A stretch of 36,521 nt of DNA from a virus, in the IMG/VR virus record IMGVR_UViG_3300047362_001115, positions 1-36,521 of that record. One strand, 5' to 3'. The position numbers and the translations under genes were made by a program. The notes below the pieces were generated by a model. The model searched no databases. It was not told where the DNA came from and saw only the letters and a program-made list of their open reading frames with translations. Of this stretch, positions 1,580 to 25,674 are shown piece by piece; position 1 is the first letter of the stretch; each line of letters begins with the position of its first letter.

Positions 1580-2161
1580 ATGAAAATCTCAGATTTTAGT
1601 GAGAATATATCAGCAGGTAGTTTTGCTACTAGTATGGGATCTGGAAACGGATTTAAATCTGGTGGCATTGGTACTGAACCGTTACGTCGAAATAAGAAAA
1701 GAAAACCAGAAGCCACCGAAGCAGGCTTACCTCCCCACCTAGCAAAAATGTTTAATAAAGACGGAAGCAAAAAGAAGGGCAAATGGGTAAAAGGTAAAGA
1801 TGGTAAAAGTAACTGGGTAGCAGATAAAAAACAACATTCATTTACAGTAACTGATGTAACTCCAAAAGGATATGGTCCTGACGAAAGTGTTCATGCTATG
1901 AACAAAGAAGATCCTAATAACCCAGAAGTATTGATACAGGGTTATGGTCGTATGTCAATGAAAGGACTAAAAGCAAATATAGCACAATCATTAGCAGAAT
2001 TAGCCAAGAAGGCTGAAGATGATGATTGGGATTTTATAGAGTATGCAATGAATAATGGTGTATTCACTGCAAAACTCACAGCGTTAATGAACGCTATAGA
2101 AGATTTAGAAGGTATACGCAAAAAAGGCGGGCCTAAATCACGTGGTATTAATAAAAGGTAA
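1580..2161 (+). CDS. Probable head-associated protein with capsid-targeting-like N-terminus
   Basis: 193 residues from ATG 1580 (GCGGAG 8-9 bases upstream); the open frame extends further upstream but only into the preceding gene. It begins MKISDFSENI, resembling the short capsid-targeting peptides of T4 internal proteins, though the protease signature (L/I-x-E) is imperfect (F-S-E). Residues 30-95 are Gly/Lys-rich and likely disordered (RRNKKRKPEA, KKKGKWVKGKDGK); the C-terminal third looks helical (KGLKANIAQSLAELAKKAE). No enzyme motif. It lies directly before a run of genes with the same kind of N-terminus, so a structural or packaged role is inferred. Confidence 0.75.
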   Translation: MKISDFSENISAGSFATSMGSGNGFKSGGIGTEPLRRNKKRKPEATEAGLPPHLAKMFNKDGSKKKGKWVKGKDGKSNWVADKKQHSFTVTDVTPKGYGPDESVHAMNKEDPNNPEVLIQGYGRMSMKGLKANIAQSLAELAKKAEDDDWDFIEYAMNNGVFTAKLTALMNAIEDLEGIRKKGGPKSRGINKR

Positions 2162-2166
2162 CGACA

Positions 2167-3594
2167 ATGAGCCAGAAAAAAATTGATAATACATTTGACA
2201 AAATGATTGCAGAGATGGAACGTTTTGCTAAAGTAGTAAAAAAAGACGGTAGTCTTGAAAAAACAGTAATGGAGTCAGCAGGTAACGTAAGTAAAGTTGC
2301 TGACGTTAGAGCGGCTATAGAAGGTGCTCTTATAGCAATACATAATGCAAAAGGTAAAAATTTAACAGAAGGCGTGTTAGATGATAATGATGACGATGGC
2401 TTTATGGCTCGTTCACAATTATATTTCCTTGCTAGAGATGCAATACAGTTACACTCAATGATTGGTGATACAGATAATTTGGAACCTTGGGTACAAAGTA
2501 AAATTTCACAATCCGCTGAAGCAATTGATGCAGTACGTCGTTACACTGAATATCATAATGTAGAAGCAGAGTACGGTGATGAAGAAATGGGTCCTGAAAT
2601 GGAACCTGATATGGAAGAAGGTCACACCATCATGCCTCCAATCGATAGAGAAAAATACCAAGAGCGTGAAGATTTAGAAGGTCCAATTATTACTAAAAGC
2701 GGTAAAGTAGTATATTATGATCCAAAGGAAGGTCAATATTATGATCCGGATACTGATATGTACTTATCATATGATGATTGGAAAGCATTAGATGAGAGCA
2801 TTTTTTCTGATATGGCAGAAAATGTAGACTTTGGTCAAATGCTACGTTATACACAATTAGAAGCAGAAGGACGTTTAGAAGAAGCAAAAGCAATTGAAGA
2901 AGCGTTTCCGTTAATCCCACTTGCTATTGCTGGTGCTAGAGCTGCGGCTCCCTGGATTATTAGGTCATTAGCAGGTAAAGGTGCTACTAATGTTGCAAAA
3001 AAATTAGTAAAACGTGGTGCAAAGAAAACAGGCCAAGTTATGAAACGTGCATTACGCAGTAGAAAGAATAAAGCAAAAGCAGGCACGGCGGCGGCAACAG
3101 GTGCTGCACCGTTTGCACTTCCTGATTTTAAAGCAGGAGATGCTGGAGACACTGGAACAAGAGGCGGCGTTGATATTGCAAAGATGGCAATGTCTAGAAA
3201 GAAATCACAAATGAATGATTCTGTTATTGAAGGTGATAAAACTTATAGCAATCATGAAATTAAGGATGAACATAAACCATTTATTGCAATGGGACATGAT
3301 ATTCAGGATTCTTTAGATAGAAACAACCCTAAGTTTATTGAATGGCCAATGGATATGTGGAATAAAGCGGCATCGCTTAGTGCAGAGTTTATTGAATTGG
3401 GTGCTAGTTTTGCATCTCGTTCTCCTGTTGAAGCAGTTAAAAAAGCAGGACTTACAATGGACGAAGCGAAACTTGTTATTAATTCAATGAAAAAAGGCAA
3501 GTATGTAGGAGAAACTGTTGATAGTAAATTAAGTATGGAAGCAACAGAATTTTTTAAGGCTGTTAAACAAAAAGCAGTTAAAAAGGCAAAGTAA
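2167..3594 (+). CDS. Large putative internal head or structural protein with prohead-protease-like sites
   Basis: 475 residues. The first part is helical, with a segment around DGFMARSQLYFLARDAI-QLHSMIGD (79-103) of a kind I associate with T4-like marine phage virion proteins. An acidic stretch (EEMGPEMEPDMEEG) follows. Positions fitting the T4 gp21 rule (L/I-x-E then a small residue) are LTE|G (66-68), LDE|S (208-210), LEE|A (237-239) and IEE|A (243-245). The last directly precedes a hydrophobic, possibly membrane-active segment (AFPLIPLAIAGARAAAPWII) and then a very basic region. The C-terminus is helical and basic. It overlaps the next start as TAATG. I infer a precursor protein cleaved during head maturation and possibly delivered with the DNA; no enzymatic domain seen. 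Confidence 0.75.
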   Translation: MSQKKIDNTFDKMIAEMERFAKVVKKDGSLEKTVMESAGNVSKVADVRAAIEGALIAIHNAKGKNLTEGVLDDNDDDGFMARSQLYFLARDAIQLHSMIGDTDNLEPWVQSKISQSAEAIDAVRRYTEYHNVEAEYGDEEMGPEMEPDMEEGHTIMPPIDREKYQEREDLEGPIITKSGKVVYYDPKEGQYYDPDTDMYLSYDDWKALDESIFSDMAENVDFGQMLRYTQLEAEGRLEEAKAIEEAFPLIPLAIAGARAAAPWIIRSLAGKGATNVAKKLVKRGAKKTGQVMKRALRSRKNKAKAGTAAATGAAPFALPDFKAGDAGDTGTRGGVDIAKMAMSRKKSQMNDSVIEGDKTYSNHEIKDEHKPFIAMGHDIQDSLDRNNPKFIEWPMDMWNKAASLSAEFIELGASFASRSPVEAVKKAGLTMDEAKLVINSMKKGKYVGETVDSKLSMEATEFFKAVKQKAVKKAK

Positions 3595-3779
3595 TGCGTA
3601 TCTCTGAGGTCACTGAGCGTAAAATGACAGGCTCTGAAAAGTCCAAAGAGGATAGGCTTAAAGACAAATATGACGATAGTGATATGAAAAAGAATATGAA
3701 AAAGCAATATGGTTCAGATTGGAAATCTGTATACTATGCTACAATAAGAAAAAAAGCAATGACTAAAGGTGCAAAATGA
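3594..3779 (+). CDS. Small basic protein with capsid-targeting-like N-terminus
   Basis: 61 residues beginning MRISEVTERK, followed by a highly charged helical body (KSKEDRLKDKYDDSDMKKNMKKQYG) and a C-terminal SVYYATIRKKAMTKGAK. The end resembles the small phage modules that finish in A-T-I-x-x-A-M-K. The start overlaps the previous stop in TAATG, so expression is probably coupled to the large upstream protein. The VTE|R site only partly fits the T4 prohead-protease rule. Likely a packaged DNA-binding peptide; inference from the N-terminus and neighbours. Confidence 0.7.
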   Translation: MRISEVTERKMTGSEKSKEDRLKDKYDDSDMKKNMKKQYGSDWKSVYYATIRKKAMTKGAK

Positions 3780-4558
3780 GATATCAAGATTTAATAGATG
3801 CTATAGAAGAAGCAATAATCAGAGGTAGAGGTATTAGTCATTTACGCAATAGATCCTATTTTGATGGAAGAGATAAACTTACACAAAGATCTGCGGCAAT
3901 GGCAAAAGCGAATTCTGAAGAAGAATTAAAAAAAGAACTAGAGCGTAAAAAGAAGGAACGCGAAGCAGCCAAAGAAGGTCACAGTCCACACAAAAAAGGC
4001 ACAAAGAAGTATAAAGCACACATGGCGGCTATGCACGCCGAAGCTGCTGATGGTGAAAAACCATATGTTTGTGTACATGCTAAAAAGGGCAAGTATGAAT
4101 GTCATGCATCTACAACATACGGCGCCGCTAAAAAGGCAGCAGAACATTGGGGACTAAAGAGTACAGCAGGTATTGATGCACATCTAGCAATTGAAGAAGG
4201 TCGCTATGACGGTCCTAATAGTGAATGTTGTGATGCACCGTTACTTAATTATAATGACGGACTAGGTATTTGTAGTGATTGTAAAGACCATGCTGGACCT
4301 ATTGATGATGATGAATTAGAAGAAGGCCGTATCGACGGAGCACAAATTATAGGAGCTCTAGAACGTATAGTTGACCAAAAACAAGCACAAGAAGTTAAAT
4401 TTGTAGATGGAAAAGCAAAAGTTGATTTATATACAGCAAGTGCATTTATGAAAGTTTACAATAAAGTTAATGATGATAATAAAGCAAAAATGGCACAAAG
4501 AGCAGAACAGCGTGGGTCATTTATGTCATTAATGAAAAAAGTGTTCGAACTCATATAG
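3776..4558 (+). CDS. Putative packaged multi-module protein with protease-like sites and zinc-ribbon-like segment
   Basis: 260 residues; ATGA overlap with the upstream gene. The N-terminus MRYQDLIDAIEE|A gives a good T4-like targeting peptide plus cleavage site (IEE, 10-12). A Lys/Glu coiled region (47-70) is followed by a module YVCVHAKKGKYECHAS...YGAAKKAAEHWGLKS (97-129). A module bounded by IEE|GR (139-141) and LEE|GR (181-183) contains C151, C152, C166 and C169 (ECCDAP, CSDC), which resembles a small zinc ribbon. A C-terminal helical module (184-260) completes it. The two identical E-E-G-R boundaries suggest that prohead protease could release the modules. No known enzyme domain. Confidence 0.75.
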   Translation: MRYQDLIDAIEEAIIRGRGISHLRNRSYFDGRDKLTQRSAAMAKANSEEELKKELERKKKEREAAKEGHSPHKKGTKKYKAHMAAMHAEAADGEKPYVCVHAKKGKYECHASTTYGAAKKAAEHWGLKSTAGIDAHLAIEEGRYDGPNSECCDAPLLNYNDGLGICSDCKDHAGPIDDDELEEGRIDGAQIIGALERIVDQKQAQEVKFVDGKAKVDLYTASAFMKVYNKVNDDNKAKMAQRAEQRGSFMSLMKKVFELI

Positions 4559-4567
4559 GATTTTATT

Positions 4568-4750
4568 ATGAAATACGATAAACTTAAAATTACAGAAGCA
4601 GAGTTTGATGAAGCGGCAGGCGAAAAAGATGCTTGTTATCATAAGGTGAAAAGCAGATACAAAGTTTGGCCAAGTGCATATGCAAGTGGCGCTTTATCCA
4701 AGTGCCGTAAAGTTGGTGCTAAGAACTGGGGCAACAAGAGTAAAAAGTAA
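4568..4750 (+). CDS. Small conserved phage protein (CYHKVKSRYKVWPSAYASGAL type)
   Basis: 60 residues. The N-terminus MKYDKLKITE|AEFDEA looks like a capsid-targeting peptide with an ITE|A protease-like site. The rest (DACYHKVKSRYKVWPSAYA, then SGALSKCRKVGAKNWG) is a compact module I recognise as recurrent in tailed phages, with two Cys and many aromatics. Its function is unknown. ATG 4568 follows a 9-base gap after the previous stop with a poor ribosome site. The downstream gene starts in the TAATG overlap. Confidence 0.8.
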   Translation: MKYDKLKITEAEFDEAAGEKDACYHKVKSRYKVWPSAYASGALSKCRKVGAKNWGNKSKK

Positions 4751-5322
4751 TGCGTATTAATGAAGTTGTCAATATTATTAGTGAAGACGTTGATAAATTG
4801 TATAACATCATTGACGACTTAAATGCTGATGATGTAGGTGAAGAACGTAGTGGTCAATATGTACTAAAGTACGAAGGGTTTTCAGATTGGTGTCAACAAG
4901 ATGCCGCAGAACGCTGTGAACTACCAGATGGTGACCGTCGCAAATTAAATGCCTACGAAGACGTATATGATGAAGTAATCGACGGCTGGAACAAGGAAAT
5001 GGGTAGTGAACCTATTGATACTGGTTTTAGCGGAGACGAAGACTATCCTGTACAGTGGGCAATTTACGATACAGGTGTAAGTGAAGATTTACGCAAATGG
5101 TTTAAACAAAAATGGGTTCGCTTTGGCCCGGATGGTAAAATTGATGGTCCTTGTGCTAGAGGTTCTAGTAAAGAGGGTAAACCAAAATGTTTACCACAAA
5201 AGAAAGCACATGCTCTTGGAAAAAAGGGAAGAGCTAGTTCAGCTCGCAGAAAGCGTAGAGAAGATCCAAACGCAAACAGGCGCGGTAAGGCAAAGAACGT
5301 ATCAACTAAAGGCAAAAAATAA
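4750..5322 (+). CDS. Putative packaged protein with very basic C-terminal module
   Basis: 190 residues. It begins MRINEVVNIISE|D, a targeting-like peptide with an ISE|D site. Residues about 13-110 are acidic. The C-terminal 75 residues, starting KWVRFGPDGKIDGPCARG and continuing through KPKCLPQKKAHALGKKGRAS and REDPNANRRGKAKNV, form a basic module with two Cys that I have seen as a free or fused module in marine phage proteins. The charge split (acidic front, basic tail) fits a head-packaged DNA-binding protein. TAATG couples it to the gene before, and its stop overlaps the next start. Confidence 0.78.
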   Translation: MRINEVVNIISEDVDKLYNIIDDLNADDVGEERSGQYVLKYEGFSDWCQQDAAERCELPDGDRRKLNAYEDVYDEVIDGWNKEMGSEPIDTGFSGDEDYPVQWAIYDTGVSEDLRKWFKQKWVRFGPDGKIDGPCARGSSKEGKPKCLPQKKAHALGKKGRASSARRKRREDPNANRRGKAKNVSTKGKK

Positions 5323-5486
5323 TGGCAGGGCAACTAGATTATAAACCAACTAGTTGTAAAAATTGTGGACATTATAGCCATTGTGGTACTCCTCTTTGGA
5401 GAGAGGAGAAAGACTACGGCACAGATGACGAACCTTATCAAATAAAAGTTTGTGAACATTGTCGTTGTGAAAATTGTGTAAAGTAA
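5322..5486 (+). CDS. Cys-rich microprotein, probable zinc binder
   Basis: 54 residues starting at ATG 5322, which overlaps the previous TAA by one base. Seven Cys and three His are arranged as SCKNCGHYSHCG (C12, C15, C21) and VCEHCRCENC (C44, C47, C49, C52), a pattern suited to one or two zinc sites. The linker is acidic. No family recognised. It lies between the virion-type genes and the ATP-grasp-like gene, in register with the tight spacing of real genes here. Confidence 0.65.
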   Translation: MAGQLDYKPTSCKNCGHYSHCGTPLWREEKDYGTDDEPYQIKVCEHCRCENCVK

Positions 5487-5492
5487 TATTTT

Positions 5493-6146
5493 ATGGCGAT
5501 ATTTAAAAATGATGAAGATGCCTATAAGGGCCTTCCGGGTGCCCATTGGGTTTATAATAAATTACAATTATCAGAGAAACTAGGCTATGTATGCGGCCCA
5601 AGTGTGGTTCCTGTACCACATGATGGAAATTATATTATAAGACCTATTATGAATTTAAGTGGTATGGGCATTGGAGCTCGTATTGAAACACTTAAAAAGG
5701 GTGATAAGATTACAGATCCCTCGTATTTTTGGTGTGAGTGCTTTGAAGGTGATCACATTAGCGTTGACTACACGTTTAAAAAAGGAGAGATATTTCCAAT
5801 CTTTGCTTGTCAAGGATGGAACGATAAGAAAGAATTATGGCGTTTTAATAAATGGGTTAAAGTAGATCCTATACCAGAAGAATTATCCTTACCAAATTGG
5901 TTAGAAGGTGATATAAACAGTGCTCAGCATATTAATGTTGAATGGATTGATGGTAAGATTATTGAAGTGCATTTGAGACATGGGCATGATTTTCCTAAGG
6001 GAGCAGTAGAAATTATCCCGGTGTGGGAAGACATAGCACAAGAACAGCATTACAGTTGGGGGTCATCTGGTTATAATTGGAAAGCAGATGAAGATGATGC
6101 TGATACTAACCTAGAAGTAAAAAGGCTAGGTTTTTATTGGAGGTAA
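5493..6146 (+). CDS. Divergent ATP-grasp-like protein
   Basis: 217 residues. Several short stretches follow the ATP-grasp order: NKLQLSEKLG (start of the nucleotide domain), YIIRPIMNLSGMGIGAR (about 47-63, like the K/R-P-x-x-x-x-G-x-G phosphate strand and loop), FEGDHISVDYTFKKGE (the G-x-x-x-S-V-D strand) and INVEWIDGKIIEVHLR (similar to the E-x-N-x-R metal and ATP strand, with H in place of N). The protein is short for a full ATP-grasp ligase (usually above 280 residues), so a partner or minimal fold is implied. It sits one base before the ANL ligase gene, sharing a GGAGGT ribosome site at its end, so the two are very likely co-translated. Substrate unknown; fold assignment is inference from motifs. 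Confidence 0.55.
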   Translation: MAIFKNDEDAYKGLPGAHWVYNKLQLSEKLGYVCGPSVVPVPHDGNYIIRPIMNLSGMGIGARIETLKKGDKITDPSYFWCECFEGDHISVDYTFKKGEIFPIFACQGWNDKKELWRFNKWVKVDPIPEELSLPNWLEGDINSAQHINVEWIDGKIIEVHLRHGHDFPKGAVEIIPVWEDIAQEQHYSWGSSGYNWKADEDDADTNLEVKRLGFYWR

Positions 6147-6147
6147 A

Positions 6148-7203
6148 ATGAAAATCTATATAGATGGAGAAGAACTTTCTCCAACTGTTATTGCAGATGC
6201 AATACAAACCCCACGCTACATATCAACAAATACATTAGACTGGAGAGAAAATGTGCTAGGAGCGTTACATGCTTGGCACAATAACACTGGTTTTGGATAT
6301 GGCGAACCCGGAAACGGTTTTTATAATGTAAGTACTAGTGGTACTACAGGATTTCCACAACGTATATCTCATAGCAGAGAAACTATTGAAGAAGCAGTGG
6401 AAGGAAATATAGAACTTTACAATTTAAATAAACATAGTAAAATTTATAGTTTGTATAGTCCAAAAGGAATTGCATGGAGTACGCTGGCTGTACATCTTGC
6501 AGTTAAACTTGATTGTGAGTTATATATTGAAACATACAAAGGATTAGATTATATAAATCGTATTCATACAATACGTCCTACCCATACATTAATACTACCA
6601 AATTTATGGAAACAAATGCATAAGCATCCTAAATGGGAAACATTAGACTATAGTAGTGTTGATACACTCATCATTGGTAGTGATTTTACGCCTAAAGGCA
6701 GTATGGAAGAATTGCGTACACACGGTGCGAATAAAGTTTACAACGTATATGGAAGTAGTGAAGTTCCTCCGGCTTGGTTAATTAGTGAATATGAAAATGA
6801 ATATAGTAGTTCATTATTGCCAAAAGGAATAAGTTTAAAAATAGAAGATGATTGTATTGTTGCTAAGTGGAGTACACAGAATGAATACTGGCATAGTAAT
6901 GACTTAGTTGAAGGTACCTTAGATAGATTTAAACTTAAAGGGCGTAAACATAATATGTTCAAACAAAATACTGAACGAGTTTATCCAGAACAAATAGAAA
7001 AATCAGCAGTAGAATATGGTGCTGATTTATCGTTATGCCAACAAGTAGGAGTTAATTGTATACTACACTATACAGGAAACATGTACGAAGATAAAGTAAA
7101 ACAAACATGGAGTCATATTCCACGTTTTAGGTTAAAGAAAGTCGATGAGATTAAGGTAGACGATAACCTAAAGAAAATAATAAGAACACAAAGTTTTAAA
7201 TAA
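6148..7203 (+). CDS. AMP-forming acyl/aryl ligase of the ANL superfamily (compact)
   Basis: 351 residues with the ANL core motifs in order: the phosphate loop STSGTTGFPQR (62-72), the adenine/Mg motif VYGSSEVPP (200-208, family Y-G-x-T-E), the ribose-binding aspartate in WHSNDLVEG (D252), the hinge GRKHNMFK (265-272), the P-E-Q-I-E strand, and a C-terminal lysine in NLKKIIR (K343) equivalent to the adenylation lysine of G-K-I-x-R. Such enzymes activate a carboxylate as acyl-AMP and pass it to CoA, a carrier or an amine. It is short (MenE-type enzymes are roughly 450) and lacks much of the N-terminal subdomain. The usual hinge Asp is His/Asn here. GGAGGT stands before ATG 6148. Neighbours are an ATP-grasp-like gene and virion-type genes; acyl substrate unknown. 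Confidence 0.85.
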   Translation: MKIYIDGEELSPTVIADAIQTPRYISTNTLDWRENVLGALHAWHNNTGFGYGEPGNGFYNVSTSGTTGFPQRISHSRETIEEAVEGNIELYNLNKHSKIYSLYSPKGIAWSTLAVHLAVKLDCELYIETYKGLDYINRIHTIRPTHTLILPNLWKQMHKHPKWETLDYSSVDTLIIGSDFTPKGSMEELRTHGANKVYNVYGSSEVPPAWLISEYENEYSSSLLPKGISLKIEDDCIVAKWSTQNEYWHSNDLVEGTLDRFKLKGRKHNMFKQNTERVYPEQIEKSAVEYGADLSLCQQVGVNCILHYTGNMYEDKVKQTWSHIPRFRLKKVDEIKVDDNLKKIIRTQSFK

Positions 7204-7206
7204 ATA
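7197..7206 (+). promoter_or_regulatory. TAAATAAATA box, possible late promoter
   Basis: The sequence TAAATAAATA spans the stop codon of the ANL ligase gene and ends 24 bases before ATG 7230. It resembles the T4 late TATAAATA box, with no -35 element. It fits a set of similar boxes before 1580, 16920 and 18798. Confidence 0.35.
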
Positions 7207-7229
7207 CATTATAAGCAAAGGAGAAAACC

Positions 7230-7430
7230 ATGGCAAAAGAAGACGACACAGGTAAACTCGAAATAGCAGTCCGAATTTTGGGCAATGAATTAGTAGCACT
7301 GAAGATGACCGTTGATGATTTTAAAATGAAATGGTTAGTTTATGGAGTATTAACGGTAGTTGTACTAGCATGGGCTGGCGGGACATATGGTCCTGCACTA
7401 TTTGATATGGTAGGAGATAGCAATGGGTAA
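7230..7430 (+). CDS. Small single-pass membrane protein
   Basis: 66 residues, start ATG 7230 behind AAAGGAG. The N-terminal half is an amphipathic or coiled segment (TGKLEIAVRILGNELVALKM), followed by one membrane helix (WLVYGVLTVVVLAWAGG, about 35-51) and a short tail. Size and topology would suit a holin or a small accessory membrane protein, but nothing here is diagnostic. It overlaps the next gene by 8 bases. Confidence 0.7.
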   Translation: MAKEDDTGKLEIAVRILGNELVALKMTVDDFKMKWLVYGVLTVVVLAWAGGTYGPALFDMVGDSNG

Positions 7431-7683
7431 AAAAAGATCAAGAGCTACACAAACTAGCAAAGGAACTACACATCAAAATCCTAATAGATTAGGACGTAGA
7501 ATTTCTAAAGAATTAAGACGAGAATACATGGCAGGTCCATTAAGAGATCATAATCAATTACTAGCATATATGCGTGGTAAAAAGGTAATGGTTACTATTC
7601 CTAATCCAAATACGAATGAAACAAATAAGAGAATGATTCGTGTACCTGCACAAGAAGTATGGAAAACAGTAAGAAGAAGATAA
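7423..7683 (+). CDS. Basic protein of unknown function
   Basis: 86 residues with an Arg/Lys-rich character throughout (MGKKRSRATQ, LGRRISKELRREY, KTVRRR at the end). A middle part VMVTIPNPNTNETNKRMIRVP could form a beta hairpin. GTAGGAG lies 6-7 bases upstream of ATG 7423. It ends directly before the next ATG (TAA then ATG). The basic nature and position in the virion block suggest nucleic-acid contact; no family recognised. Confidence 0.7.
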   Translation: MGKKRSRATQTSKGTTHQNPNRLGRRISKELRREYMAGPLRDHNQLLAYMRGKKVMVTIPNPNTNETNKRMIRVPAQEVWKTVRRR

Positions 7684-9042
7684 ATGAGAGCAGAACAGTT
7701 TTTATATGAAAGTAGAGGTGTTACAGCCAGAGCACCAGGTGAACAATACGTTAGTGATGTTGACCCAGATGATATTTTGACTATTCAAAATATAGACGTA
7801 TTACCTGATGGGGCAAGCGGCTATGAAAGTTTTGAAGAACTTGAAGCGGCTATTAAAAATTCTATTAAAGATGAAAACGCTCGCATTAATGACAACGATC
7901 CACAGAGTAGCTCAAGAGCGGCAATTATTGCTACTTTGATTGATAAAAATAATAAGCCGCAATATTGGGTACGCTTCCTGAAAGGGATTCCAGATAAAGG
8001 AGTACACGGACTTTGGAAAACACTTAAAGGTTACCAATACACTAAAGGAAAAGCACAAGAAACAATACCTATTAAGCCAAGTGATTTAATTACAGACGAC
8101 AGTTATAGAACAACCGATGCAGCCGCATCAACAGTTATGGCAGGCCTTGCCAACCAAGTTAAAGGCACACCGTATGAATCTTTAATTGGAGTAATGGATC
8201 AAGCAATTAAATTAGCTCGTAGCGGACGAGTTGCACCAATTGAAGGCGCAGGACAATATTATAATGTTTTGCAGAAGTATGGGGGCGAGTACTTAGGACC
8301 AATGGCGCTCATAGACGGTAACTTCCAAGGAGGTGACACACCTAAAATGCTTCAAGCATTTGGATTACAAAGCCTTAAAGGAAGTAGAGTAGCGTTTCCT
8401 CAGGATACTGCAATGGAATTAATAGATAGCATTATTAAAACACCTGATGGACAACGTATTGAGGTTAGCAGTAAAATTAGCACGGCAGGCGGCGCCGCTA
8501 GTAGTTTAAGTGGTGTGGCTAAACAAATTACAGATGAAATGCGTAGCGATTTCCCACGTGGAACTAATATAATTGAAATGCTAGGTACATTATCCTCTGT
8601 TAACGGCCCGCTTCGTGTAGCAAAAGAGTTTGGCATAATTGATGATAACGACATCATAGCAATGGACAATCTAACAAAAACTAGTAAGGACATAAACGAT
8701 TTAGGCACAGAAAAACTAATATCAATGACAAAGGCACAAGGCGTACAAAAAGGTACATTTGAACGCAGTGATTATCGTGTATTCTGGCATGCATTAACAG
8801 CGATTATGAATGCAGTAATACCTTTAGTAAACAATGATGAAGAATTTAAACAAGCGATGATTGCAGCACTTAATAATAACAATTATGTAGTAATAGCAAC
8901 CAAAGGAGTCCAGTCAGGAGATTCTGTAACACTTGACTATTCAACTAAGTTTCCAGCAGTGTTTAGCGGTGCTCCCCAACTAAAAAATAAAACATACTTT
9001 GCGACAGGACAAAAAGGTCGCATTGGGTTTAAGATGGAATAG
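7684..9042 (+). CDS. Large putative virion protein with capsid-targeting-like N-terminus; possible nuclease fold
   Basis: 452 residues. It opens MRAEQFLYE|S, a T4-like capsid-targeting peptide with an LYE|S site. The central part has LIDSIIKTPDGQRIEVSSK (D248, E260, K264) followed by a Gly/Ala/Ser-rich loop (TAGGAASSLSG). This weakly resembles the D...ExK core of PD-(D/E)xK nucleases, but the spacing E-V-S-S-K is one residue too long, so the nuclease idea is only a suggestion. The C-terminal third includes a Tyr/Trp segment (YRVFWHALTAIMNAV) and beta strands. It starts immediately after the upstream stop. A packaged and injected protein is inferred from the N-terminus and context. Confidence 0.7.
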   Translation: MRAEQFLYESRGVTARAPGEQYVSDVDPDDILTIQNIDVLPDGASGYESFEELEAAIKNSIKDENARINDNDPQSSSRAAIIATLIDKNNKPQYWVRFLKGIPDKGVHGLWKTLKGYQYTKGKAQETIPIKPSDLITDDSYRTTDAAASTVMAGLANQVKGTPYESLIGVMDQAIKLARSGRVAPIEGAGQYYNVLQKYGGEYLGPMALIDGNFQGGDTPKMLQAFGLQSLKGSRVAFPQDTAMELIDSIIKTPDGQRIEVSSKISTAGGAASSLSGVAKQITDEMRSDFPRGTNIIEMLGTLSSVNGPLRVAKEFGIIDDNDIIAMDNLTKTSKDINDLGTEKLISMTKAQGVQKGTFERSDYRVFWHALTAIMNAVIPLVNNDEEFKQAMIAALNNNNYVVIATKGVQSGDSVTLDYSTKFPAVFSGAPQLKNKTYFATGQKGRIGFKME

Positions 9043-9050
9043 GAAAAACA

Positions 9051-9326
9051 ATGTGGGAAATGATTGAAAGAATGGCCACTGATAGGCTTTGGATTTACAC
9101 AGCAATAGCAGGGTCATTGTTTGGTGCCGCTTTCTTGTTTTGGTTTAAAGACACAAGAATGGCAACATGGGCAGTAGCAAGGTTTGACGAAATCTGTGAA
9201 TACCTGGCAATACGTTGGGGTTGGACTTGGTTACAGGATGATCCAAATGCATGGCGTGTGAAGTATCCAAAAATTACTGCTAAAATTGACGAACTAGAAG
9301 AACGACTCAAAAAATTAGAAAAATGA
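9051..9326 (+). CDS. Membrane-anchored coiled-coil protein, conserved-phage type
   Basis: 91 residues: an N-terminal membrane helix (LWIYTAIAGSLFGAAFLFW, about 13-31), a Trp-rich middle (YLAIRWGWTWLQDDPNAW) and a C-terminal coiled coil (KITAKIDELEERLKKLEK). I recall similar small proteins in T4-like marine phages. The topology could suit a spanin-like or membrane-tethering role, but no lipobox or known spanin motif is present. It overlaps the next gene in ATGA. Confidence 0.75.
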   Translation: MWEMIERMATDRLWIYTAIAGSLFGAAFLFWFKDTRMATWAVARFDEICEYLAIRWGWTWLQDDPNAWRVKYPKITAKIDELEERLKKLEK

Positions 9327-10442: not shown

Positions 10443-11094
10443 AATAATTGTCAATTATCGTCAAGGCTGTTGTGGTGAATTTATTTTATCGTTACTACAA
10501 GCCTTGGATGGTGATGCAAACTTATCAATAGAAGAGGCTGGCTCCTGTCATAATAACAGAAAATGGGAGAAAAACCAAACTAAAGATTTTGAAATATTCA
10601 ATGAAAATCTAAAAGACATTGATCTTAATAGTACTTCTTTAAGGTTTATTAAGGCCCATTGTTCTAAAGATTATCTTCTCTTGAAAAAAGTCGGTAATCA
10701 TACTATAATTAAAATTGTACATGATAATGAAGAATGGGGCAGAATGAGACAAGCACGGAACATTGTGTTCAAAGTATTCATTGGTGAATGGGACCGTTAT
10801 GGACAATCTGATTATAATTTTGTGAAACCATATCTAACTAGATATGGATTTAGTAGCGAGAAGATACCAAAAGAAATGGACGAGGAAGAACTGCATTCAC
10901 TAATAGTGGCGCTGTCAAAAGAAGTGAAGGCTCCCTATCATGAAAGAAAATATGACACTATTAAATATCTAAGTTTGCAGGATATATATCAAAATAAGGA
11001 AAAAGTATTAAACATGCTAGAAACACTTTCAGGTCTGAAACGTAATAAACATGCGTCAGATTTTTATGATGAATATTTGAGGCTTCAACCATGA
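10423..11094 (+). CDS. Unknown protein, possibly sulfotransferase-like
   Basis: 223 residues from GTG 10423 (no better in-frame ATG nearby); a GGAGG about 12 bases upstream lies in the DsbA-like gene, which it overlaps by 20 bases. The N-terminus IIVNYRQGCCGEFILSLLQ has a strand-loop-helix with a G-x-x-G-E that could be a nucleotide or phosphosulfate loop, and the C-terminal KYLSLQDIYQNKEKVLNML resembles the late part of small sulfotransferase-fold proteins. No catalytic His is certain. It lies between the DNA-binding protein and the DNA polymerase, overlapping the latter in ATGA. Confidence 0.6.
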   Translation: MSEETNKIIVNYRQGCCGEFILSLLQALDGDANLSIEEAGSCHNNRKWEKNQTKDFEIFNENLKDIDLNSTSLRFIKAHCSKDYLLLKKVGNHTIIKIVHDNEEWGRMRQARNIVFKVFIGEWDRYGQSDYNFVKPYLTRYGFSSEKIPKEMDEEELHSLIVALSKEVKAPYHERKYDTIKYLSLQDIYQNKEKVLNMLETLSGLKRNKHASDFYDEYLRLQP

Positions 11095-13733
11095 GCTATA
11101 TTGATGCATTCTTAGATAGAGAACGTGATATTATTAATGTGGTAGAACGTCTAAATGGTAAACGTGTGTATAAAGAATATCCTCCACGTTATACAATGTA
11201 CTATAAAGATCCTCGAGGTAAGTTTACAAGTATCTTTGGTGACAAATTAGAACGTGTCATAGTAAACACAAGCAAAAAATTTAACACAGAAAAGAAAATA
11301 CATGGCCATAAGAAATTATTTGAAAGTGATATAGATCCTGTTTTCCGCTGTCTAGCAGACAATTATCTAGAAAAGGATGCTCCAGAACTAAATTTATGTT
11401 TCTTTGATATTGAGGTTGACTTTAACAAAGAATTAGGATTTGCTGATCCAAGTGATCCCTTTAATGCAATTACAGCCGTTGCATTACATCTTAGTTGGCT
11501 AAAGAAAACTATTTGTTTGGCTGTTGCTCCTAAAACTCTTACACAAGAACAGGCACAGGAAATTTGTGATAAGTTTCCTGATACAATGCTTATGAAAGAC
11601 GAAGCAGAGTTGCTTAATATGTTCTTAGAATTAATCGATGATGCTGATATCTTAAGTGGTTGGAATAGTGAAACGTTTGATATTCCGTATATGGTTAATC
11701 GTGTAGAACGTATATTGAGCAAAAGTCACACTCGTAAGTTTTGTTTGTGGCAAAAATTTCCACGTGAACGTACACTAACTAAGTTTGGTAAGGAAAACCA
11801 AGCATATGAATTACAAGGGCGTATTCATTTAGACTATTTGGAACTTTATCGTAAGTATACATATCATGAAATGCATAGTTATAGTCTAGATGCTATTGGT
11901 GAATATGAACTACAAGAACGTAAGATTGCATATGAGGGTACATTAGATCAACTTTACAATAACGACTTTGAAACATTTATTTCATATAATAGGCAAGATG
12001 TTGATCTACTAGTTAGACTTGATAAAAAACTACAATTTATTGACTTAGCAAACGTACTGGCACACAGTAACACAGTTACTCTTCCACGTACAATGGGTGC
12101 GGTTGCAGTTACGGATATGGCTATTGTAAATGAAGCACATAGACGAGGACTTATTGTTCCTGACAAGCGACATGGCGAAAAGCCACTATCAGCCGCAGGT
12201 GCCTATGTTGCAAAACCTAAAAAAGGTATGCATAAGTGGATTGGTTCAGTTGACTTGAACAGTCTGTATCCTAGTATTCTACGTGCATGTAATATGAGTA
12301 CAGAAACAATTGTTGGACAGGTCAGACATACCTTAACTCGTCCAATGATTGAGAGTTTTAATAATGATGTTCCAAGAGCATGGGATGGTAAGTTTGCTTG
12401 TTTGGAATATGATTTGGTTATGGCTAGAGACGTTGATGAATTACTTACACTTGATTTTGAAAATGGCGAAAGCATAAAAGCCACTGGTGCTGAGATATAT
12501 GATTTAGTGTTTAATAGTGGACAATCATGGATTATTACTGCTAACGGTACATTGTTTACATATGAGAAACAGGGCATTGTTCCAGGACTGTTAGAACGTT
12601 GGTATGACGAGCGTAAAGAATTACAAGCAAATGCTCGCGCCGCACGAGACGAAGGTGGTGATAAATTTGCTTATTGGGATAAGCGACAGTTAGTTAAAAA
12701 GATTAACTTGAACAGTTTGTATGGTGCTTTGTTAAACCCTGGTAGTAGGTTCTTTGATGAACGCTTGGGGCAGAGTACGACCCTTACAGGCCGTTGTATT
12801 GCTAAACATATGGCTGCAGAACTTAATAAAGTTATTGCAGGCGAGTATGACCATATGGGGAAAGCAATTGTGTATGGTGATACAGATTCAACTTACTTTA
12901 GTGCATATCCTGTTTTAAAAGAACAGATTAAAAAACGTGAGATTAATTGGGATAAAGATACAATCATACAATATTATGATGCGGTAGGCGAGGAAGTTAA
13001 CCAAACATTTCCTAATTATATGCATACTGCATTCCATACAACACATGAACTGGGCAAAATTATTGCAACAGGTAGAGAAGTTGTAGGTGAAGCAGGTATC
13101 TTTATTACAAAGAAACGTTATGCTATTCTAGTATTTGATCTAGAAGGCAAACGTGAAGATGTTGATGGTAAGCCAGGCAAAATTAAAGCAATGGGCTTAG
13201 ATTTGAAACGTAGTGATACTCCTGATTATATGCAGGACTTCCTTAGTGAAGTATTGATGATGGTATTGACTGGCAGTGAGGAAAAAGAAGTAATAGATAG
13301 GATTATTGAATTCCGTAAGGAATTTAGGGACAAACCTAGTTGGCATAAAGGAACGCCTAAACGTGTTAATAATCTAACTAACCTAACTAAACAGTTTGAG
13401 AAAACTGGTAAGTGTGGTGTTGGACATGCTATGGCAGCCATTAATTGGAATCGTTTAAAGAAAATGAATAGTGATGCATATAGTATTGATATCACTGATG
13501 GCATGAAAACAATTGTATGCAAACTTAAAAACAACCCAATGAATATTACTAGCATTGGTTATCCTACAGATGAATTGCGTATTCCTGAATGGTTTAAGGA
13601 ACTTCCGTTTGACGATGAGGCAATGGAAGGTGCAATTATTACTAAAAAGATAGATAACCTACTTGGTGAACTTAATTGGGATTTAGATTCAGCTCAAGCA
13701 AAAACAACATTTAATGACTTGTTTGAATTTTAA
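11091..13733 (+). CDS. 43: Family B replicative DNA polymerase (T4 gp43-like)
   Basis: 880 residues, close to T4 gp43 (898). All exonuclease and polymerase motifs are visible: Exo I FFDIEVD (D106, E108), Exo II LSGWNSETFDIPY, Exo III YNRQDVDLL; polymerase motif A SVDLNSLYPS (about 386-395), motif B KKINLNSLYGALLNP (about 535), and motif C YGDTDST with the catalytic pair near 597 and 599. It should copy the phage genome with 3'-5' proofreading, working with the clamp and the gp44-type loader encoded at 29735. It begins in ATGA overlap with the previous gene and is transcribed from the promoter at 10129. It appears complete, without intein or split. Confidence 0.97.
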   Translation: MSYIDAFLDRERDIINVVERLNGKRVYKEYPPRYTMYYKDPRGKFTSIFGDKLERVIVNTSKKFNTEKKIHGHKKLFESDIDPVFRCLADNYLEKDAPELNLCFFDIEVDFNKELGFADPSDPFNAITAVALHLSWLKKTICLAVAPKTLTQEQAQEICDKFPDTMLMKDEAELLNMFLELIDDADILSGWNSETFDIPYMVNRVERILSKSHTRKFCLWQKFPRERTLTKFGKENQAYELQGRIHLDYLELYRKYTYHEMHSYSLDAIGEYELQERKIAYEGTLDQLYNNDFETFISYNRQDVDLLVRLDKKLQFIDLANVLAHSNTVTLPRTMGAVAVTDMAIVNEAHRRGLIVPDKRHGEKPLSAAGAYVAKPKKGMHKWIGSVDLNSLYPSILRACNMSTETIVGQVRHTLTRPMIESFNNDVPRAWDGKFACLEYDLVMARDVDELLTLDFENGESIKATGAEIYDLVFNSGQSWIITANGTLFTYEKQGIVPGLLERWYDERKELQANARAARDEGGDKFAYWDKRQLVKKINLNSLYGALLNPGSRFFDERLGQSTTLTGRCIAKHMAAELNKVIAGEYDHMGKAIVYGDTDSTYFSAYPVLKEQIKKREINWDKDTIIQYYDAVGEEVNQTFPNYMHTAFHTTHELGKIIATGREVVGEAGIFITKKRYAILVFDLEGKREDVDGKPGKIKAMGLDLKRSDTPDYMQDFLSEVLMMVLTGSEEKEVIDRIIEFRKEFRDKPSWHKGTPKRVNNLTNLTKQFEKTGKCGVGHAMAAINWNRLKKMNSDAYSIDITDGMKTIVCKLKNNPMNITSIGYPTDELRIPEWFKELPFDDEAMEGAIITKKIDNLLGELNWDLDSAQAKTTFNDLFEF

Positions 13734-21930: not shown

Positions 21931-22201
21931 GGTATTTTTTATTGCTAAAATTAAAGAATTCAATGACGAATATAAAGAGTATGTTACCAAAGTAAGAAAA
22001 CTTGGTGAAGAACATCCTGGTTTCATTAGTTTGGAAAGTGAAGAAATTGGTGATATAGAGATCACTATTACTACATGGCGTAGTAAAGAAGATGTTGAAG
22101 ATTGGGCAAAGGATCCTACACACGTCAGTGCTAAACGCAAGTGGCGTGAATGGTATCATTGGGTCAAAGGAATTCATGTGGAGACAAAAGATGAAGTATA
22201 A
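21920..22201 (+). CDS. ABM-domain (antibiotic biosynthesis monooxygenase-like) protein
   Basis: 93 residues from ATG 21920 (AGAGG just upstream); a longer frame from 21869 runs into the CHCC gene. The strand-helix order VFFIAKIKEFNDEYKEYV, GFISLESEEIGDIEITITTW, RSKEDVEDWAKDPTHVSAK and WYHWVKGIHVE is typical of the dimeric ferredoxin-like ABM fold, with the W-R-S-x-E-D...W...H signature. Members are small oxygenases or haem-handling proteins. A specific reaction cannot be given. It overlaps both neighbours by 11 bases. Confidence 0.78.
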   Translation: MAIKVFFIAKIKEFNDEYKEYVTKVRKLGEEHPGFISLESEEIGDIEITITTWRSKEDVEDWAKDPTHVSAKRKWREWYHWVKGIHVETKDEV

Positions 22202-22724
22202 AGTTACAGATTATATTAGAACTGTTCCAGATTATCCTAAAGAAGGAATAGAATTTTATGACTTAAACAGTTTATTTGCTAGTGAAGTATGGGGTGCGAT
22301 TGTTTCAGACTGGTGCAGTGCATTAGAATATGGCGACGTTTTTGAAAAACATGTTACACATATTGTTGGTATTGAAAGTCGTGGTTTTGTAGTAGGGCAG
22401 GCATTAGCAAGTGAACTTTTAAAGCCGTTTGTTATGGTGCGTAAAAAAGGCGCAAAGTATCCAGGTAAACTATTAGAAGAATCATACGAATTAGAATACG
22501 GAACTGATACATTAACACTTCAAGAAGGTATACTAGGTCATACAAGTCATGTGCTAATTGCAGATGATTTAATTGCTACTGGTGGCAGTGCTTTAGCAAC
22601 TAAGAGACTTGTTGAACAAACAGGAGCCACTGTAGAAGGGTTTGCGTCAATAATTAATTTACGATATCTAAACCAACCAGAAATTGAGTATCTCAAAATC
22701 TTTTCATGTGATGAATTAGAATAA
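22191..22724 (+). CDS. apt: Adenine phosphoribosyltransferase
   Basis: 177 residues from ATG 22191, full length for Apt. Visible signatures are IRTVPDYPKEGIEFYDLNSL (9-28), VGIESRGFVVGQALA (59-73) and the PRPP loop HVLIADDLIATGGSALA (120-136). The enzyme joins adenine and PRPP to AMP plus pyrophosphate. PRPP synthetase is encoded at 24721, so the phage supplies both enzyme and cosubstrate for adenine salvage from degraded host RNA. It overlaps the ABM gene by 11 bases, and its TAA overlaps the next ATG. Confidence 0.93.
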   Translation: MKYKVTDYIRTVPDYPKEGIEFYDLNSLFASEVWGAIVSDWCSALEYGDVFEKHVTHIVGIESRGFVVGQALASELLKPFVMVRKKGAKYPGKLLEESYELEYGTDTLTLQEGILGHTSHVLIADDLIATGGSALATKRLVEQTGATVEGFASIINLRYLNQPEIEYLKIFSCDELE

Positions 22725-23492: not shown

Positions 23493-23861
23493 ATGATAAA
23501 CGTTACTGAAGAAGCAGGCAAGCATCTGCTATCTATTATGGAAACACAAAACAAATACATCATGCTGGGCGTTAAAGGCGGTGGCTGTGCTGGCTTTAGT
23601 TATGATTGGCAATTATTGGATGAAGCACCTACTGATGCAGAAGTAATTAAAATATCTGAAGAACAAAACTTTTATGTTGACAATATGAGTCTTATGTATC
23701 TATTTGGATCGACGGTTGACCTTAAAAAAGATGTATTTGGTACTGTCCTTGAAGTTCAAACTCCTGCCGCTTCTAGTAGTTGTGGTTGTGGTGAAAGTAT
23801 TAATTTTGATATGGATTATATTGATGCTAATATGCCACCTGATTTAGGAAATTGGGACTAA
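23493..23861 (+). CDS. A-type Fe-S cluster carrier (ErpA/IscA/SufA, HesB family)
   Basis: 122 residues; GAGGGGA precedes ATG 23493. The three invariant cysteines are present: GGGCAGFSY (C32) and SSSCGCGESINF (C97, C99). INVTEEAGKHLLSIM and LFGSTVDLK are also family features. These proteins receive Fe-S clusters and pass them to targets. A short acidic tail (DANMPPDLGNWD) extends beyond the usual C-terminus. Together with the SufT-like protein and ferredoxin it forms a phage Fe-S set; A-type carriers are known in some marine phages. Confidence 0.92.
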   Translation: MINVTEEAGKHLLSIMETQNKYIMLGVKGGGCAGFSYDWQLLDEAPTDAEVIKISEEQNFYVDNMSLMYLFGSTVDLKKDVFGTVLEVQTPAASSSCGCGESINFDMDYIDANMPPDLGNWD

Positions 23862-24677: not shown

Positions 24678-24720
24678 AAAAACAATAACATAACTAACCA
24701 GAAGTGGAGACACCTTGAAG

Positions 24721-25674
24721 ATGAAGATCATTGCCGGTAATAGCAATCGTCCTTTAGCAGACGCAATTGCTGGATACTGTTTTGCTGAGATTGTGCCAGC
24801 AAATATTAGTAAATTCGCAGATGGCGAATGTAGTGTAGAATTTTTAGAAAACATTCGCGGCGAAGATGTTTTTATTATTCAAAGTACTAGCACACCAGTC
24901 AATGATAATCTAATGGAACAGTTGATTATGATTGATGCGGCCAAACGTAGCAGTGCAAGACGTATTACGGCAGTTATTCCATATTTTGGATATGCACGAC
25001 AGGACAGGAAGAGTGCTTCACGTACTCCAATTACTGCCAAACTTGTTGCTAATCTACTAACAGCCGCTGGTTGTGATAGAGTGTTGACAATGGATCTACA
25101 CGCAGGGCAGATACAGGGTTTCTTTGATATTCCTGTAGATGATCTAACTAGTAGATTAGTATTTGCAAAAGACATTAAAACATCAATCGGATACATAGAT
25201 GATCCAGAAATAGAACAAGCAAGTACAGTATTTGTATCACCTGATGCGGGTGGTGCAGTAAGAGCTCGTAAGTTTGCAGATATGTTTCACGGAGATATTG
25301 CTATTGTTGATAAACGCAGGCCACGTGCTGGTGAAAGCGAAGTAATGGCACTTATTGGTGATGTTTCAGGTAAACATGCAGTACTGGTAGATGATATGGT
25401 TGATAGTGGAGGTACATTGTGTAAAGCCGCTCAAGCGATTATGGATCAAGGTGCTTTGAGTGTTCGTGCATATATTACACACGGAATTTTAAGCAATGAT
25501 GCATGCCAAAAGGTAGAAAAGTCAGTGCTAGACGAACTTGTTATTACGGATACAATCAGTGATCATTGTCCAAAGGGTTGTAAAAAAACTAGACAAGTAA
25601 GTATTGCTCCATTAGTTGGAGAAGCAATTCGTAGAATTACCAATGAAGAGTCGGTAAGTAGTTTATTTGTATAA
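24721..25674 (+). CDS. prs: Ribose-phosphate pyrophosphokinase (PRPP synthetase)
   Basis: 317 residues from ATG 24721; TTG 24715 is in frame and closer to the GGAG at 24706-24709, so it could be the real start. Family signatures: [30 protein letters not shown] (flexible loop), [19 protein letters not shown] (Mg/ATP region), and the PRPP loop [13 protein letters not shown]. It converts ribose 5-phosphate and ATP to PRPP, the precursor for purines, pyrimidines, NAD and for Apt at 22191. Full length. First gene of a run with its own promoter, followed by mazG. Confidence 0.95.

Follow-up and report, generated by a model that had tools for sequence, protein, structure and literature searches.

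Short N-termini shared by unrelated proteins of an uncultured marine T4-type phage are probable head-loading tags

Why should six proteins with unrelated bodies begin alike? The question is raised by a block of genes (positions 1580 to 9042) in IMG/VR record IMGVR_UViG_3300047362_001115, a fragment of 36,521 nt (36.5 kb) that was analysed as a whole and is called the window here; positions are on the plus strand as presented. The window comes from a large uncultured marine T4-type (jumbo) phage, and its genes were called with a simple purpose-written script instead of a standard gene caller. The original prediction described six open reading frames (ORFs) with similar starts, and their coordinates and N-termini were found to agree with our gene calls. 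It also held their bodies to be unrelated, and when each of the six was compared by BLASTP with all gene calls, only the match to itself was found within the window (E<1e-3). We conclude that the six N-termini are very probably T4-type head-loading (capsid-targeting) tags. The predicted role, a cleavable head-targeting tag in front of differing cargoes, was supported by the position enrichment of the motif, by an indel in the tag, by gp21, gp22 and gp23 in the wider phage group, by L-x-E in gp23, by the exchange of cargoes, and by a tagged NMNAT in the virions of two cyanophages.

The six tags, all on the plus strand and with a slash at the predicted cut, are MKISDFSE/N (1580..1603; ORF 1580-2161, 193 aa), MRISEVTE/R (3594..3617; ORF 3594-3779, 61 aa), MRYQDLIDAIEE/A (3776..3811; ORF 3776-4558, 260 aa), MKYDKLKITE/A (4568..4597; ORF 4568-4750, 60 aa), MRINEVVNIISE/D (4750..4785; ORF 4750-5322, 190 aa) and MRAEQFLYE/S (7684..7710; ORF 7684-9042, 452 aa). 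Four of them carry L/I-x-E followed by a small or acidic residue (IEE/A, ITE/A, ISE/D and LYE/S), as had been claimed. The ATG of ORF 1580 is preceded by GCGGAG; the TTG at 1496, which would give a longer frame, is without such a site. The tag layout would be Met, Lys or Arg, a hydrophobic residue, any residue, an acidic or polar residue, a hydrophobic residue, at least one further residue and Glu, and typical tags in the group are MKIxDIIxE, MRAxEFLxE and MRLxQLxE. We infer that during head assembly the tag would dock each protein on the prohead core, that a gp21-type protease would then remove it by cutting behind hydrophobic-x-Glu, and that the unrelated mature proteins would remain within the head, from which some may exit with the DNA and be delivered to the host.

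Relatives of the window were found with its untagged gp43-type DNA polymerase (11091..13733, +) as bait. This gp43 is about 44-50% identical to the polymerases of jumbo T4-type myoviruses, with the best matches in Sinorhizobium phage Phosso, Agrobacterium phage Atu_ph07 and Vibrio phage 2.275.O, and IMG/VR contains contigs with gp43 67-85% identical to it. Alignment of N-termini across related loci, the comparison proposed in the original prediction, showed that hydrophobic-x-E is kept in the 452-aa family (18 sequences). Its members start with MRAFELLE/S, MRAFELLSE/S, MRAEQFLYE/S, MRADEILYE/S or MRAEQIIFE/S; a one-residue indel places the Glu at residue 8 or 9, with hydrophobic-x-E and then SRGV retained. 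Homologs of ORF 1580 keep hydrophobic-x-E as well (MRFTDLDE/N in L005, MKVHDIIKE/T in L067), the homolog of ORF 3594 in L051 begins MIIRDIVE/R, and that of ORF 4750 in L006 starts MRINEVVHTISE/N. Similar residues stand inside larger proteins. A small cationic domain, A, is still preceded by MMTE or ALTE when it lies at their C-terminal end, and a second, B, is preceded by IPE, LYE, VVE, INE, IEE or VSE, with TTE as the single exception. This pattern suggests that the protease may also separate domains of larger proteins, and GVSE/DLRKWF in ORF 4750, ending near base 5085, is a possible internal cleavage site.

Protease and capsid genes were present in the wider group. Three contigs whose gp43 is 57-59% identical to that of the window (G024, G040 and G046) have homologs of gp20, gp21, gp22 and gp23. 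Like those of the window, their tagged genes lie upstream of gp43 at a distance of a few kb, with some others elsewhere. In the wider group, each of the 56 distinct gp23 sequences carries L-x-E (LSE 21, LAE 16, LME 10, others 9) immediately ahead of a conserved ..G.T..GN[IV]ATLN stretch, at the position equivalent to that in T4, and by analogy with T4 gp23 this is a predicted processing site.

These data bear on the alternative that survives best, namely that the tag directs proteins to the core, shell or tail of the assembling particle and is not cut, with the Glu as part of a docking helix. For T4 IPIII it has been reported that the first 10 residues are enough for packaging and that gp21 cuts after L/I-x-E, while Asp at position 10 stops processing and not targeting (PMC9026906). 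Targeting and processing are thus separable there, and cleavage in the phages studied here is a prediction. An uncut tag, however, does not agree well with a spacing indel that preserves hydrophobic-x-E just before a fixed mature start, nor with L-x-E at the corresponding site in every gp23 and gp21 homologs in the same wider group, and we regard it as unlikely.

The tagged bodies were found to be exchanged between contigs. Directly upstream of the conserved, untagged MWEMIERM gene (MWEMIERMATDRLWIY.., 9051..9326, +), which marks an exchange slot, different tagged families occur in different contigs: the 452-aa family in the window and L012, a 467-475-aa family in L005, L006, L069 and L075, and a 356-374-aa family in L016 and L032. 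In some contigs the gene in the slot is untagged. Profile comparison, made for the 452-aa and 467-475-aa families only, gave no match between them. L039 was tried as a member of the second cargo family and rejected as a probably false member, as it is without the family motif. Overall, 112 tagged proteins (redundancy included) formed 26 body clusters by single linkage. Domains are also rearranged: the 92-aa C-terminal domain encoded by ORF 1580 is a stand-alone gene in relatives (e.g. L024_378), the two halves of this ORF correspond to neighbouring genes in L024, and residues ~61-142 of ORF 3776 recur within other tagged proteins (L005, L035, L041, L067). Such swapping of bodies behind the tag, with domains fused and split, would also fit a shared N-terminus left behind by gene shuffling, as a short stretch of 5' homology that aids cassette recombination and has no targeting role. 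Against this, the amino-acid pattern and the position of the Glu are kept while the intervening residues vary, as in the 60-aa protein, where MKYDKLKITE, MKFDKLKLTE or MDTVKNIFTE stands in front of one shared body, and similar tags occur on virion-detected proteins of other phages; we consider a recombination scar very improbable.

The position of the motif was then counted in 592 proteins, drawn from the window and related loci and made non-redundant at 50% identity over the first 30 residues, 149 of which start with MK or MR and 443 otherwise. Hydrophobic-x-E ended at residue 8 in 34 of the 149 MK/MR starters (22.8%) and at residue 9 in 16 (10.7%), together 33%; the share was 0-4% further along the chain, and about 2% among the 443 other proteins. 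A total of 40 proteins fit the strict motif M[KR]xx[DENQ][ILVFM]x(1-2)E, compared to 1.5 on average and never more than 7 when the N-termini were shuffled 2000 times, a count somewhat flattering to the motif because it was composed after the N-termini had been viewed; the peaks at residues 8 and 9 depend less on this choice. At internal MK/MR sites the strict motif was found in 3 of 254 cases. Several window tags have a longer spacing (Glu at 10-12) and fall outside it. A run of 12 consecutive genes, out of 59 on the plus strand, contains all six tagged ones (P=0.0006, by sampling), and among the nine other MK/MR-starting genes of the window only 548-787 has hydrophobic-x-E near its start. Within the related loci 81 of 83 strict-tagged genes were upstream of gp43, compared to 747 upstream and 590 downstream for all genes, counts that are not independent because the loci are related. 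MK and MR starts are common, as would be needed if they are merely favoured for translation and short hydrophobic and acidic runs follow by chance, but this excess over shuffled N-termini, later positions and other starters makes coincidence barely credible.

Some observations weigh against head-loading tags. Two of the six, FSE/N (1580) and VTE/R (3594), have F and V instead of L or I at the -3 position. Neither gp21 nor gp23 was found in the window or in the searched close-relative contigs with PF03420, PF07068 and the gp21 and gp23 proteins of Vibrio phage 2.275.O, where the absence of PF03420 tells little because it matched in no control. Finally, when a looser form of the tag rule was applied to the script gene calls of cyanophage S-SCSM1, 13 starts fitted it, and because most of these are without a virion label, the rule by itself is not specific; its use alone as a predictor was rejected after this trial.

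What would be loaded differs between the six genes. Cargo 1 (1604..2158, +; net charge +11) consists of a Gly/Ser-rich linker and the 92-aa C-terminal domain, cargo 2 (3618..3776, +) is a basic protein of 53 aa with a net charge of +9, and cargo 3 (3812..4555, +) is a multidomain protein. Cargo 4 (4598..4747, +) is cationic domain A (phrog_727-type), which is also present within cyanophage polyproteins, and cargo 5 (4786..5319, +) belongs to the 190-aa protein with cationic domain B at its end. Cargo 6 (7711..9039, +) is a predicted mature protein of 443 aa that may contain a PD-(D/E)XK-like nuclease domain. Within larger polyproteins, sequences 57-99% identical to cationic domain A (4598-4747) occur in 366 phage records, almost all of them from marine cyanophages. 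The S-SCSM1 record labels a 517-aa protein with this domain 'virion protein'; the main text of PMC9602691 does not name it. The cluster also encodes an untagged 475-aa protein (2167-3594); it has an OCRE-like stretch that is weak and does not reach the Pfam cut-off, and parts of the protein recur in tagged proteins of relatives.

Signatures like those of PD-(D/E)XK enzymes were seen in the three slot families: LIDS..DG..I.VSSK in the 452-aa family, ADLFLDIDGTTVNLLSLK in the 467-475-aa family and GDLIIDGKNVEVK in the 356-374-aa family. The 18 aligned members of the 452-aa family have E202, D248 and S262-S263-K264 invariant, with S where the signature has D/E. When the C-terminal domain of the 452-aa protein was modelled, the first nine VIA rows were PD-(D/E)XK enzymes (restriction endonucleases, Hjc resolvase). 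Because the Z of these matches is at most 4.7, in the unreliable range of the tool, the nuclease-like fold of the modelled cargo is only a lead. With Foldseek, neither the full model nor the domain model had a significant match. Residues 1-15, the tag region, were modelled as disordered (predicted local distance difference test score, pLDDT, <50). In addition, a 2352-aa protein of a relative (L002:4277-11335), starting MKFKDVKTLESILLEYG, has a C-terminal part ~25% identical to the 452-aa protein.

Some small tagged proteins of relatives resemble the capsid protein itself. Among 2913 proteins, a profile of the gp23 processing region and N-arm recognised none but capsid proteins and small proteins of relatives that carry a tag and are mostly 59-81 aa long, the latter with the Glu in register: L008_2969 (2e-7), G040_14207 with MKIREIFE/TATAGATSSANIATV (7e-7), G001_122435 (2.5e-5) and others weaker. 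An earlier two-sequence gp23 profile gave the same pattern. Compared with its own capsid protein, the G040 small protein scored 58 against a shuffle maximum of 56 (2000 shuffles), a small margin; the 59-aa tagged protein of G046 did not score above shuffles, so a capsid-arm copy is not universal among the small tagged proteins. ORF 1580-2161 of the window was rejected as such a copy (E=83 with the first profile, absent from the matches of the second) and is only a positional counterpart of the capsid-arm proteins of relatives.

Corresponding proteins were found in other T4-type phages. T4 gp61.1 (NC_000866, 18966-19130, 54 aa, annotated as hypothetical) has the CTS-like (capsid-targeting-sequence-like) start MKTFKEFIKE and a Lys-rich tail, and aligned with gp23 across the FLTE/A site with a score of 82 (shuffle maximum 60). 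It was matched in 1386 phage records, some possibly via gp23 itself. The longer RB43 version scored 88 against its own gp23, just after I-M-N-E (shuffle maximum 49). A 61-aa S-SCSM1 protein labelled 'virion protein' (93121-93306) scored 83 against its own capsid protein (shuffle maximum 52), where it matches the mature N-arm. If translation began at an in-frame ATG at 93082, MDKTDRVIQLIRE would be prepended as a propeptide with L-I-R-E at its end; the annotated start at 93121 may therefore be internal. The same record has a 69-aa 'virion protein' (91626-91835) that ends with KKKRTFKEFLEYIE, like a tag at the C-terminus.

It is possible, and we propose it with less than even confidence, that T4, cyanophages and jumbo marine phages share one head-loading system, in which tiny capsid-arm copies with a basic tail perhaps dock on the inner shell, and diverse nuclease-like enzymes encoded at an exchange slot are loaded into the head for host delivery. 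If the N-termini are head-loading tags, a hydrophobic-x-Glu within residues 8-12 of a protein that starts with MK or MR, taken with the right gene neighbourhood, would help to list the head cargo of uncultured T4-type phages. Many 'hypothetical' genes would become candidates for injected proteins, and there would be a hint why a metabolic enzyme recurs in cyanophage virions. The capsid-arm copies also offer a testable idea for gp61.1.

Elsewhere in the window, the product of 6148-7203 contains STSGTTGFP, like the ATP-binding motif of adenylate-forming enzymes, judged from sequence alone. By eye, the products of 22092-22724, 23493-23861 and 24715-25674 resemble an adenine phosphoribosyltransferase, an A-type Fe-S carrier and a ribose-phosphate pyrophosphokinase, respectively. 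No tRNA genes were found in the window. The phage collection gave no match to the first 20 kb at the DNA level, and none at the protein level to the 452-aa protein, whose family was not found in cellular genomes either. No Pfam domain above the cut-off was detected in the tagged proteins scanned, and PHROGs gave families of unknown function only. A search of the literature, covering little subscription content and no supplements, returned no account of such tags in marine or jumbo T4-type phages.

Among known systems, giant phages of the phiKZ/SPN3US type have several inner head proteins, and their ejection-protein propeptides are cut after x-x-Glu by a gp21-related protease (PMC5694885); those propeptides are mostly longer than 100 residues, and the phages belong to another group than that of the window. 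Two cyanophages offer another parallel. In S-SCSM1 virions 45 proteins were detected by mass spectrometry, NMNAT included (PMC9602691), and the NMNAT gene (88819-90048) encodes a protein beginning MKSFLQFLKE/AAESG. For S-SZBM1 virions the cytidylyltransferase is the sole enzyme listed from mass spectrometry (PMC9146016), and this protein (514-1602) begins MRFRQFIIE/A. Homologs in cyanophages start with MKSFSQFLTE, MKKFSAFLTE and similar sequences. Here an enzyme stands behind a T4-like tag, as in the cargo layout of the window, although the phage group and the cargo are different; the accessible text of both papers (PMC9602691, PMC9146016) is silent on the tag.

The likeness to T4 drawn in the original prediction held in part. 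As with the T4 CTS, which is carried by IPI, IPII, IPIII and the Alt propeptide and cut by gp21, a short N-terminal peptide with an MK start and an L/I-x-E end precedes unrelated proteins, and the mature proteins are often basic in both. T4's own tags read MKTYQEFIAE and MKTFKEFIKE, and the start of T4 gp24, MAKINELLRE, resembles MKINEIxxE of the window group. The T4 consensus, however, was matched only loosely: residue 8-9 is the usual place of the Glu (10-12 in some tags), instead of 10, with a consensus of MKIxDIIxE or MRAxEFLxE. T4 gp61.1 combines a CTS-like start with a gp23-N-arm-like stretch, as do the small tagged proteins of relatives and unlike ORF 1580 of the window. New in comparison with T4 are the mostly shorter tags, the far larger number of cargo families, the exchange slot with nuclease-like proteins, and the capsid-arm copies in relatives.

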